A DNA stretch of 64,000 nt from the NCBI RefSeq assembly GCF_900105925.1, contig NZ_LT629791.1, positions 62,001 through 126,000 of the forward strand, read 5' to 3'. How positions within the stretch are numbered: position 1 is the stretch's first letter; each line of letters opens with the position of its first letter. This DNA is from Jiangella alkaliphila. GTDB taxonomy: Bacteria; Actinomycetota; Actinomycetes; Jiangellales; Jiangellaceae. Shown here in pieces: positions 31,617-53,544 of the stretch. The notes beneath the pieces are model-generated. The model ran no database searches. It saw only the letters and a list, made by a program, of their open reading frames with translations, and was not told the origin of the DNA. The translations under genes and the position numbers were made by a program.

Positions 31617-31638
31617 GGAGAGTCCCCTTCCGCGTGCT

Positions 31639-31688
31639 TTTGCAATGAGCACCAATACGCACCGGTGCGTATACGTGCTCATTGCAAA
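31639..31688. repeat. 50-bp near-perfect palindrome between divergent genes
   Basis: Two 25-base arms pair at 23 positions; the central ATACGCACCGGTGCGTAT (31655-31672) is a perfect 18-bp palindrome, and the outer TTTGCAATGAGCAC has its exact complement. It lies 22 bp before the glutaredoxin-like gene and 74 bp before the HAD hydrolase gene, so it may be a shared operator or a cruciform site. Confidence 0.8.
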
Positions 31689-31762
31689 GGCCACCGTACG
31701 TCCTGCCGCAGGATGCCTTGCCGGGCGTCGGGGTGGACGATGCGCCGTTACTCTTGGCGACC

Positions 31763-32632
31763 ATGCCGGGTTTGCGCTTGCGCAGGGAACGGACCGGGGC
31801 CGCGTCGGAACGGGCGAGGGCCGACGTCGCGGCCAGCACCGCCGAGGCGATCGCCGGCATCGAGCTGCCGTCCGACGCCCGGGCGGCCGCCTTCTTCGAC
31901 CTGGACAACACCGTCCTGCGCGGCGCCTCGCTGTTCTATCTGGCCCGCGGGATGTACCAGCGCGGGCTGCTGCGCACCAGCGACATCCTCCGGTTCGGCC
32001 GCCAGCAGCTGCAGTTCGCCCTCGGCGCCGAGGACCCGGACCACATCGTCGAGGCGCGGGCGGCGGCGCTGTCGTTCATCGCCGGCCGGTCGGTCGAGGA
32101 GCTGTCGCGCGTCGGCGAGGAGATCTTCGAGCAGCTGATGGCCGACAAGCTCTGGCCCGGCACGCAGGCGATCGCGCAGCTGCACATCGACCAGGGCCAG
32201 CGGGTGTGGCTCGTGACGGCGGCGCCGGTCGAGGTGGCGACGATCATCGCCCGGCGGCTCGGCCTGACCGGCGCGCTGGGCACCGTCGCCGAGCACGTCG
32301 ACGGCTACTACACCGGCCGGCTGGTGGGCGACCTGTTGCACGGCGCGGACAAGGCGGCGGCGGTGACGTCGCTGGCCGTGCGCGAGGGCCTGGACCTGCG
32401 CCGCTGCTCGGCCTACAGCGACTCCGCCAACGACATCCCGATGCTCTCGCTGGTCGGCTTCCCGTGCGCGGTCAACCCGGACCGCAAGCTGCGCCGTCAC
32501 GCCCGCAAACGCGGCTGGCGGATCCGCGACTACCGGGCCCGGCGGCGCAACACCACGCTGGGCATCGCGGCCGGCACGGGTGCCGTCGCCGGCGCCGCGG
32601 TCGGGATCGTCGCCGCCCGCAAACGCCGCTAA
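31763..32632 (+). CDS. HAD-IB family phosphatase, SerB-like
   Basis: Hydrolase of 289 residues. HAD motif I is FFDLDNTVLRG (44-54), motif II VTAAP, and motif IV YSDSANDIPMLS. A basic stretch is followed by a Gly/Ala-rich helix at the C-terminus (AAGTGAVAGAAVGIVAA) that could anchor it to the membrane. Genes of this type commonly sit beside an acyltransferase and an epimerase in actinobacteria, as here, suggesting a phospholipid role; the substrate is inferred only. Confidence 0.85.
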   Translation: MPGLRLRRERTGAASERARADVAASTAEAIAGIELPSDARAAAFFDLDNTVLRGASLFYLARGMYQRGLLRTSDILRFGRQQLQFALGAEDPDHIVEARAAALSFIAGRSVEELSRVGEEIFEQLMADKLWPGTQAIAQLHIDQGQRVWLVTAAPVEVATIIARRLGLTGALGTVAEHVDGYYTGRLVGDLLHGADKAAAVTSLAVREGLDLRRCSAYSDSANDIPMLSLVGFPCAVNPDRKLRRHARKRGWRIRDYRARRRNTTLGIAAGTGAVAGAAVGIVAARKRR

Positions 32633-32714: not shown

Positions 32715-32815
32715 GGGCGGCGGGGCGGAGGATGCGGAGCCGGCGTCAAGAGCGCACGCGGCATGCTTCACCGCCGCGAAGCGGAGCCGGCGCAGCATCC
32801 TCCGCCCCGCCGCCC
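32715..32815 (+). repeat. Structured intergenic element, copy 1
   Basis: A perfect 21-bp stem (32715-32735 with 32795-32815) encloses a 59-base core (32736-32794). The core is identical to that at 53408-53466, while the stem sequence differs there yet still pairs. Inside the core CGCGGC and GCCGCG form a second hairpin, and GCGGAGCCGGCG occurs at both ends. It lies in the 194-bp gap between the HAD and acyltransferase genes, which converge on it. It may act as a terminator or processed RNA. Confidence 0.8.
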
Positions 32816-32826
32816 GGCCGCAACCA

Positions 32827-33741
32827 CTAGCCGAAGGCGGGGCCGCGCAGCTCCAACAGCTCGGTGAGCGTCGCCTGGATGGTGTCGCGCACCTGGTCGG
32901 TCAGCTCGAACACCACCATGGGGTCGTCGGCCGCGCCGGGCGGGTAGTCGTCAGTGCGGATGGGCTCGCCGAACTCGATGATCCACTTCGACGGCAGCGG
33001 CACCAGCCCGAGCAGCCCGAGCCACGGGAACGTCGGCGTCAGCGGGAAGTACGGCAGCCCGAGCAGCCGGGCCAGCGACTCGGCGTTGCCGATCATCGGG
33101 TAGATCTCTTCGGCGCCGACGATCGAGCACGGGATGATCGGCGCCTTCGTGCGCAACGCCGCCGACACGAACCCGCCGCGGCCGAACCGCTGCAGCTTGT
33201 AGCGCTGCGAGAACGGCTTGCCGACGCCCTTGAAGCCCTCGGGCCAGACGCCGACCAGCTCGCCGCCGCCGAGCAGCGCCTCGACGTCCTCGTTGCAGGC
33301 CAGCGTGGTGCCGCTCTTGCGGGCGAGGTCGGCGACCACCGGCAGCTGGAAGACCAGCGTGGCGCCGAGGGCGCGCAGGTGCCGGGCCTTCGGATGGGTG
33401 TCGTGGACGGCCAGCTGGGTCATCAGGGAGTCGACCGGCAGCGTGCCGGAGTGGTTCGCCGCCACCAGCGCCGCACCGGTGTCGGGGATGTTCTCGATGC
33501 CGCGCACCTCGACCCGGAACCAGTGCTTGTACAGCGGGCGCAGCGCCGGGAGCAGAACGGACTCGGTCAGCTCGGGGTCGAACCCGAACGGGTCGACCTC
33601 GAACTCGCCCGTCAGCCGGCGCCCGGCGAACGCGACCAGCTGGTCCAGCCGATCGCCGTCGACGCCCAGGCGGTCGCGCAGCGCCCGGCCGGCCGCCGAC
33701 GCGACGCGGTCCAGCAGGCCGGGCAGCGGGCTATCGGCCAC
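32827..33741 (-). CDS. Lysophospholipid acyltransferase (PlsC-like)
   Basis: Membrane-associated acyltransferase of 304 residues. Motif I is ANHSGTLPVDS (the HX4D signature), the substrate motif is WPEGFKGVGKPF, and APIIPCSIVG is motif IV. It probably acylates a glycerol-phosphate-type lipid. GTG 33741 lies inside the 3' end of the epimerase gene (11-bp overlap), so the two are coupled. Confidence 0.88.
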   Translation of the reverse strand: MADSPLPGLLDRVASAAGRALRDRLGVDGDRLDQLVAFAGRRLTGEFEVDPFGFDPELTESVLLPALRPLYKHWFRVEVRGIENIPDTGAALVAANHSGTLPVDSLMTQLAVHDTHPKARHLRALGATLVFQLPVVADLARKSGTTLACNEDVEALLGGGELVGVWPEGFKGVGKPFSQRYKLQRFGRGGFVSAALRTKAPIIPCSIVGAEEIYPMIGNAESLARLLGLPYFPLTPTFPWLGLLGLVPLPSKWIIEFGEPIRTDDYPPGAADDPMVVFELTDQVRDTIQATLTELLELRGPAFG

Positions 33742-52243: not shown

Positions 52244-52452
52244 ACTTGCTCCTTCTCCACTACCCTTTTCCGGCCTCGATGGGGACAAAGTCCGGATTTA
52301 TCCGTGCGTGCAGAATTGATCACGCGTCAGAGACGCTAACTACGAGACTGATCATGAGTCAATGACCATGACGAAACGTCGTCGGCGGATATTTTCCGGT
52401 GTCCTTTTTGGCCCTTTGTGACCCGCTGCCGCCGGGCCTAGACTCGACGCTG

Positions 52453-53337
52453 ATGCACGCCACCGTCCTGTCCTGGTACTCCGCTCACGCGCGCGATCTG
52501 CCGTGGCGCGCGCCCGGCCGGACGCCCTGGGGCGTGTTGGTGAGCGAGATCATGCTGCAGCAGACCCCGGTCGTGCGGGTCGAGCCGGTGTGGCACGAGT
52601 GGATGCGACGGTGGCCGCGGCCGGCCGATCTCGCCGCCGAGGAGCCGGGCGAGGCGATCCGCGCGTGGGGACGGCTGGGCTACCCGCGGCGGGCGCTGCG
52701 GCTGCACGCGGCGGCCGGGGCGATCGTCGCGCGGCACGGTGGTGACGTGCCGGGGACGTACGACGAGCTGATCGCGCTGCCCGGCATCGGCGACTACACG
52801 GCCGCGGCGGTCGCGTCGTTCGCGTTCGGCGCCCGGCACGCCGTCCTCGACACCAACGTCCGCCGGGTGCTCGCCCGCGCCGTCGCCGGGACCCAGTACG
52901 CACCCGTCGCGCCGACGTCCGCCGAGCGGCGGCTGGCGCTGGACCTGGTGCCGGACGGCGACACCGCGCCCCGCTGGGCGGTCGCCGTCATGGAACTGGG
53001 CGCGCTGGTCTGCACCGCCCGCTCGCCGCGCTGCTCGGCCTGCCCCATCGCCGACCAGTGCGCCTGGCGCCTCGCCGGCTCCCCTCCCGACGACGGTCCC
53101 CCACGCCGCGGCCAGCCCTGGCACGGCACCGACCGCCAGGTCCGCGGCCGCCTGATGGCAATCCTCCGCGACTCGACCACCCCCGTGCCCAAACACCTGC
53201 TCGAGGCCACCTGGCCCGACCCCGCCCAACGCGAACGCGCCCTCGACACCCTCGTCGCCGACGGCCTCATCGAACCCTTGGACGGCGACCTCTTCCGCCT
53301 CCCCACCTCTCCCCCGCCCGCCGGTCAAGTGGGATAG
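52453..53337 (+). CDS. mutY: MutY, A/G-specific adenine DNA glycosylase
   Basis: Removes adenine opposite 8-oxoguanine, 294 residues. The catalytic Glu32 is in SEIMLQQTPVVRV, the helix-hairpin-helix is LPGIGDYTAAAV (109-120), Asp133 lies in VLDTNVRR, and the iron-sulfur cysteines are 187, 194, 197 and 203. The C-terminal NUDIX-like part is reduced, as in many actinobacteria. ATG 52453 is used. Confidence 0.92.
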   Translation: MHATVLSWYSAHARDLPWRAPGRTPWGVLVSEIMLQQTPVVRVEPVWHEWMRRWPRPADLAAEEPGEAIRAWGRLGYPRRALRLHAAAGAIVARHGGDVPGTYDELIALPGIGDYTAAAVASFAFGARHAVLDTNVRRVLARAVAGTQYAPVAPTSAERRLALDLVPDGDTAPRWAVAVMELGALVCTARSPRCSACPIADQCAWRLAGSPPDDGPPRRGQPWHGTDRQVRGRLMAILRDSTTPVPKHLLEATWPDPAQRERALDTLVADGLIEPLDGDLFRLPTSPPPAGQVG

Positions 53338-53389
53338 CCCTGGCCGTGCGGCGGGCGCGGAGCTGGCGGCCCGGTGCGCACGACCATGA

Positions 53390-53484
53390 GGAGGGGACGG
53401 CGGGTGCGGAGCCGGCGTCAAGAGCGCACGCGGCATGCTTCACCGCCGCGAAGCGGAGCCGGCGCAGCACCCGCCGCCCCCTCC
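53390..53484 (+). repeat. Structured intergenic element, copy 2
   Basis: An 18-bp stem (53390-53407 with 53467-53484, one mismatch) encloses the same 59-base core (53408-53466) as at 32736-32794. The stem sequence (GGAGGGGACGGCGGGTGC) differs from that of copy 1 but still pairs, so the fold rather than the sequence is kept. It lies about 50 bp downstream of mutY, as copy 1 lies downstream of the HAD gene. Confidence 0.8.
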
Positions 53485-53544
53485 GACCCCGCAAGCAGAC
53501 CCCGCCGGCGCAGCGCCACAAGACACCGCCCGGCGTGACCACCC

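Follow-up and report, generated by a model that had tools for sequence, protein, structure and literature searches.

A dispersed family of covarying gene-end hairpins in the Jiangellaceae, probably a mobile palindromic element

The two similar hairpins found in the analysed stretch of the Jiangella alkaliphila genome (64,000 nucleotides, referred to here as the window) belong to a family of short repeats that share one fold with covarying stems, differ in presence between orthologous sites, nest within one another, occur as shortened forms and lie at gene ends. The reading favoured here, with reasonable though far from full confidence, is a non-autonomous palindromic mobile element of ~95–105 bp that, once inserted, is retained as a gene-end structure of the hairpin type; the family is probably a selfish repeat doubling as a gene-end signal. 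In this bacterial repeat family, orthologous sites display dispersal, nesting, shortening by deletion and compensatory change of the stems next to one another, which makes it a testable case of selfish hairpins turning into gene-end signals and of co-evolving palindrome arms.

The initial annotation of the window was correct in placing an identical 59-nt core at 32736–32794 and 53408–53466, in counting 21 of 21 and 17 of 18 flanking pairs, and in noting a repeated sequence in the core, which is the 12-bp direct repeat GCGGAGCCGGCG, found twice per copy. The run identical in both copies is 65 nt long (32733–32797, corresponding to 53405–53469). The features concerned, in window coordinates, are as follows.

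31718–32632, + strand: gene upstream of copy 1, HAD-type hydrolase (gene call, Pfam)
32715–32815, + strand: copy 1, whole hairpin (21/21 stem pairs)
32715–32735, + strand: copy 1, 5′ arm of the outer stem P1, 21 nt (pairs 21/21 with 32795–32815)
32734–32745, + strand: copy 1, first 12-bp direct repeat GCGGAGCCGGCG (the 47 bases missing from short forms run from this repeat to the second)
32736–32794, + strand: copy 1, 59-nt core with P2, 5′ internal loop, P3 and apical loop (identical to 53408–53466; fold)
32763–32772, + strand: copy 1, apical loop ATGCTTCACC, which hardly varies across the family (rows of alignments A1 and A2)
32781–32792, + strand: copy 1, second 12-bp direct repeat GCGGAGCCGGCG (sequence match)
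32795–32815, + strand: copy 1, 3′ arm of P1 (pairing with the 5′ arm)
32827–33741, − strand: convergent gene downstream of copy 1, acyltransferase (gene call, Pfam)
52399–53337, + strand: gene upstream of copy 2, HhH-GPD, endonuclease III-like (gene call, Pfam)
53357–53388, + strand: possible 5′ half of an older element around copy 2, ending in CATG (by eye; not significant alone, p 0.125)
53390–53484, + strand: copy 2, whole hairpin (17/18 stem pairs)
53390–53407, + strand: copy 2, 5′ arm of P1, 18 nt, 17 paired (pairing with the 3′ arm)
53406–53417 and 53453–53464, + strand: copy 2, direct repeats GCGGAGCCGGCG (sequence match)
53408–53466, + strand: copy 2, 59-nt core (identical to the copy 1 core)
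53435–53444, + strand: copy 2, apical loop ATGCTTCACC (position from the inner-pattern scan)
53467–53484, + strand: copy 2, 3′ arm of P1 (pairing with the 5′ arm)
53485–53515, + strand: possible 3′ half of an older element around copy 2 (p 0.005)

Compared with shuffles, copy 1 gave fold z-scores of −8.5 both as RNA and as DNA, and copy 2 gave −4.9 (RNA) and −6.1 (DNA) when folded over 53389–53480, four bases short of its 3′ arm. An inner pattern derived from the family matched twice in the window and not once in 100 shuffles. The window also holds a second, different palindromic repeat at 31633–31691, where the site-1 query matches on both strands; among the matches listed, this repeat is found in at least 13 places in the J. 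alkaliphila genome, in more than 20 in genome G001 and in at least three in G010.

The fold common to the copies consists of P1 (16 pairs modelled), the short stem P2, a 5′ internal loop, the inner stem P3 and the near-invariant apical loop ATGCTTCACC, which is closed by GGC/GCC. An internal loop inside P1 reads GGA/GCA in most Jiangella copies, P2 is GCCGGC/GCCGGC with a 5′ bulge of GTCAAGAG or GTCTAAAGAG and relatives inside it, and P3 is short in most Jiangella copies and 12–14 pairs long elsewhere. The internal-loop sequence is conserved, and the apical loop nearly invariant, across four genera. Pairing was found in 95.7% of cells of alignment A1, against 75.5% for shuffles and 36–46% for slid partners, and both sides had changed in 26 of the 37 pairs (15/16 in P1, 3/8 in P2, 8/13 in P3), a count that none of 500 shuffles reached and that was far lower for slid partners, over which the structure is favoured by having been derived from the same A1 sequences. 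P2 covaries, being CCAGC/GCTGG at locus L121, as does P3 (GCGTTTCGTGGC/GCCACGAAACGC versus GCATTTCGTGGC/GCCACGAAATGC). Together with compensated P1 changes at orthologous sites, this covariation supports the earlier suggestion of selection on a fold. An alternative inner module, AAGTGGCCGCGC...CCACGGTTGGCCGC with a variable loop, sits on the same P1/P2 frame in five copies from two species (L113 and L117–L120; genomes G007 and G011), and at one orthologous site the two inner modules alternate on a nearly identical P1 (L102, L117).

The J. alkaliphila genome (7,716,500 bases, ~7.72 Mb, one contig) contains 13 full copies and one short form. The 13 cores differ from those in the window at 0 to 4 of 59 positions, and eight are identical when both window copies are counted. 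These copies leave a single empty arc of 3.22 Mb (4.09–7.31 Mb; p = 0.02), a clustering that is only suggestive. By BLAST the element was found in 8 of 12 Jiangella genomes, which have between 2 and 22 matches apiece when fragments are counted, while a covariance model built from 21 sequences found it in 13 of 22 Jiangellaceae genomes and four of six genera; the two matches in genome G014 (43 and 36 bits) are weak, and no conclusion rests on them. None of the 371 class genomes outside the Jiangellaceae carries the element, as judged by a scan of 393 class genomes under stricter filters, which may have missed weak matches. A pattern scan of named genomes gave matches in J. ureilytica, J. muralis, J. 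anatolica and J. endophytica, as well as in Phytoactinopolyspora alkaliphila, Haloactinopolyspora alba and an actinomycete MAG; two of its 19 matches (L155, L164) had no element-like fold and were taken as chance. Viral contigs gave no pattern match, nor was any match found in the plasmids and phages searched. The search of the genome and its relatives with a covariance model, which the initial annotation had proposed, has thus recovered a family of full copies, so far within the Jiangellaceae alone. Unpaired flanks in other genome copies, or identity with a known repeat, had been named as evidence that would count against the annotation; the flanks pair in all 13 J. alkaliphila copies, and scans of five loci with the Rfam 15 covariance models (E ≤ 1) placed no family at the element, the three weak hits lying outside it. 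No published account of this element was found in the literature searched, which is not proof that none exists.

The earlier option of a non-autonomous mobile repeat gains support from this dispersal and from empty orthologous sites. At site 1, whose flanking genes are present in all 12 Jiangella genomes, the 11 genomes that could be joined (in G009 they fall on two contigs) comprise one with a full copy, one with a short form, three with other hairpins and six with 7–29 bases between the aligned flanks. At site 2, joined in 11 genomes (all but G003), three have a full copy, one a short form, one a possible remnant, one another hairpin and five no copy, and the full copy of G001 is accompanied by a further short one. 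The site-2 region lies near both contig ends in G010 (G010:C1:3–1823 and 7472042–7474512), which may reflect a terminal repeat or an assembly overlap. A third site holds the element in G010, a plain hairpin in G001 and G009, and longer unrelated sequence in G005 and G007; a fourth has a full copy in three genomes, a short form in one and none in two. The flanks of empty sites are too diverged to place the element ends or a target duplication. Two further hairpin families occur at the same intergenic sites, namely GTTGATCTTGGA/TCCAAGATCAAC (G008, G005) and CCATGATCATCAAC/GTTGATGATCATGG (G002, G008), at loci L254, L259 and L256 for site 1 and L126 for site 2.

One element lies within another at L069/L071, where a full copy sits inside the apical loop of an older one. 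Across 61 Jiangella copies, a 5′ core half was detected upstream in 14 and a 3′ half downstream in nine at p ≤ 0.01, versus four and one when the halves were swapped. With p ≤ 0.05 the figures become 20 and 14 versus 16 and 6, so the test separates well only at the stricter threshold. Eight short hairpins with the loop GGAGCCGGCGCA (seven by covariance model, L097 by eye) correspond to the full form minus the 47 bases between the 12-bp repeats, and all are in carrier genomes. Short and full forms replace each other between species at three sites, which fits repeated loss between the 12-bp repeats. The opposite order, with GGAGCCGGCGCA as an ancestral terminator loop and the 47 bp as an insertion with a 12-bp target duplication, was rejected: only one of 26 exact matches in the J. 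alkaliphila genome is a short GGAGCCGGCGCA hairpin, and the four element-free Jiangella genomes gave no BLAST match at all, short or full.

As to what moves the element, the Y1 transposase domain (PF01797) was found in 0 of 12 Jiangella genomes versus 5 of 14 control genomes, and reverse transcriptase (PF00078), as would be expected of a retroelement, in 1 of 13 carriers (G020) and 2 of 9 non-carriers. As far as searched, the former is rejected as the mover in the genus Jiangella and the latter in the 13 carriers. These two usual movers are thus missing from most carriers.

The outer stem appears to be part of what moves. In the 13 J. alkaliphila copies 14–16 of 16 P1 positions pair (at L005 only with one gap allowed), and the 5′ arms share a mean identity of 77.6%, against 43.8% for shuffled arms (maximum 50.2%), which argues that P1 travels with the core. 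The two window stems, described earlier as differing in sequence while each pairs with itself, are therefore self-pairing as stated but are diverged copies of one stem rather than unrelated sequences. That the stems are site-specific terminators which pre-dated the element was rejected as the main story on the same 77.6% identity between sites. In 27 orthologous-site comparisons of P1, which overlap, are not independent and come mostly from BLAST with a few by eye, 310 pairs were unchanged, 65 had changed on both sides with compensation, 17 had become another standard pair by a single change, 31 were broken by a single change, six had double changes that do not pair and three had gaps; the single breaks indicate that pairing is not always kept.

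These data bear on the strongest alternative, that the family is purely selfish DNA with no host role, for which gene ends are tolerated insertion sites and whose stems are kept paired by fold-back template switching and not by selection. This is rather unlikely, yet it deserves serious weight. Amplification is sporadic, with 18 covariance-model matches in Phytoactinopolyspora G016 and 0, 0, 0 and 2 in its four congeners; nesting, decayed halves and the presence of other hairpin families at the same sites in other species also favour it, as does the near absence of G-U pairs (1 in 208 P1 positions of the J. alkaliphila copies), which would suit a process at the DNA level. However, in four comparisons between the closest genomes, G001 and G010, there were six single breaks and four single standard-pair changes to one double change, and such an excess of single-side changes is expected if compensation follows mutation, not from one-step copying. 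Judged from these sequences, P1 change looks like mutation, then compensation. The near-invariance of the loops across four genera likewise speaks against DNA with no host role, as does a conserved placement after rpmE (L31), seen in three genera (by Pfam in two and by eye in the third) and with a release-factor gene on the other side in one genus; this is likely an old site.

Under the favoured reading of a mobile element kept as a gene-end hairpin, each copy, known so far only from the Jiangellaceae, folds into one long rod, in the order P1, internal loop, P2, 5′ bulge, P3 and near-invariant apical loop, and would move as one unit. The copies occupy intergenic DNA by gene 3′ ends, rarely a protein linker in frame, and sometimes the apical loop of an older copy. 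Compensatory change would hold the stems after insertion, the most likely reason being that the hairpin serves the neighbouring gene as a two-way, U-poor terminator or 3′-end stabiliser, with termination as the presumed selected trait, and some protein would recognise the fixed loops. A bolder version, which we consider unlikely, is a mobile hairpin whose fixed apical and internal loops let it recognise hairpin loops, its own included, and which spreads in the form of folded single-stranded DNA with neither a Y1 transposase nor a reverse transcriptase; copies would then be portable gene-end hairpins with an exchangeable apical module, and the insertion mechanism would determine their strand relative to transcription, with opposite outcomes in two subfamilies.

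The elements lie mostly at gene ends. There were 93 non-overlapping model matches, and a codon-score gene caller placed the 62 on loci with enough flank: 60 are bordered by a gene 3′ end on one side or both and 31 lie between convergent genes (+− 31), the remainder being tandem (++ 16, −− 13) or divergent (−+ 2). For comparison, the first gene caller gave +− 29, ++ 14, −− 13 and −+ 5, with one undefined. In element orientation, the 38 Jiangella matches divide into 15 ++, 21 +−, 1 −− and 1 −+, and the other 24 (other genera and the older-type J. ureilytica copy L168) into 1 ++, 10 +−, 12 −− and 1 −+. Tandem settings are thus 15 sense versus 1 antisense in Jiangella and 1 versus 12 in the rest (Fisher p = 3e-6, with grouping by hand, orthologues counted more than once and approximate gene calls); for the sole Jiangella −− call (L078), the orthologue L013 gives a contradictory result. 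The strand-specific 3′-UTR RNA considered in the initial annotation consequently finds no support across the family as a whole, since Jiangella copies mostly run with the upstream gene and those of other genera mostly against their neighbour. A conserved RNA motif of 3′ untranslated regions, regulatory or bound by a protein and multiplied by duplication, would account for the conserved loops, for the rpmE placement and for the strong coupling of strand to neighbouring gene within each group, but it is the least probable of the alternatives, as the opposite transcribed strand in the two groups means that the copies do not all yield the same RNA, and none of the five loci has an Rfam match at the element.

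No canonical intrinsic terminator, that is, a hairpin followed by a clear U-tract, was seen among 84 copies, in which the 12 nt after the stem hold a mean of 0.9 T (maximum 5) on the sense strand and 2.6 T (maximum 6) on the antisense strand, and copy 1 showed no terminator-like site. The element may nevertheless serve as a terminator of another kind, as its gene-end location would fit. Hairpin 3′ ends with no U-rich motif are described for Streptomyces griseus (PMC8914203), and the element resembles such U-poor (I-shaped) intrinsic terminators of GC-rich bacteria, as presented there, in being a GC-rich hairpin just past a stop codon with no U-tract. Those, however, are hairpins at individual transcript ends (PMC8914203), whereas the present ones are dispersed members of one family, alike in sequence and with conserved loops.

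By its P1 arms and its 95–105 bp, the element is a MITE in the sense of a short element with terminal inverted repeats. By analogy, its closest counterparts in behaviour are the pneumococcal SPRITE, BOX and RUP repeats and the Rickettsia palindromic elements. The pneumococcal repeats are described as short, folded, enriched between convergent genes and inserted into one another, and SPRITE additionally as lying near CDS 3′ ends, as a suggested terminator and as having no clear mover (PMC3049150), all of which recalls the Jiangellaceae family. According to the same account, SPRITE and RUP are AT-rich, SPRITE with short AAAA/TTTT ends, unlike the GC-rich element with its long covarying P1 (PMC3049150); their host belongs to another phylum, and sequence kinship was judged through Rfam alone. 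REP/REPIN sequences, as outlined in the cited text, are likewise non-autonomous hairpins with decaying remnants, a REPIN consisting of a pair of REPs in inverted orientation that a RAYT (Y1) protein mobilises (PMC8049555), the domain of which (Y1_Tnp) is lacking in the 12 Jiangella genomes. The repetitive hairpin elements described from mitochondria offer a looser parallel (PMC2800124). A survey of stem-loop families covers Mycobacterium and Corynebacterium and, in its available text, never mentions Streptomyces (PMC2267715), and the main text of the J. gansuensis genome paper, as available, makes no mention of transposons or hairpins (PMC5292007).

Rickettsia palindromic elements, described as ~100–150 bp long, can sit in frame inside protein genes (PMC10969869), and in this respect, comparing by description, the Jiangellaceae element behaves similarly. 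The linker of an ABC exporter holds one in-frame copy in Haloactinopolyspora and two tandem copies in a related MAG, giving three clear copies in two of 20 orthologues. The Rickettsia elements are described mostly from inside genes (PMC10969869), whereas here these three copies, in two genomes, stand against a great majority that are intergenic. The measured linker is 94 and 135 aa long with the element and 62–95 aa in the 18 other orthologues, 14 of which fall within 62–79. A fourth in-gene match, which is weak, lies in a ResB gene (L212). Four exporter linkers of 85–95 aa have no model match (L281, L282, L284, L286), and three of these share a DSLVPRSPMP-like stretch that is perhaps another in-frame repeat.
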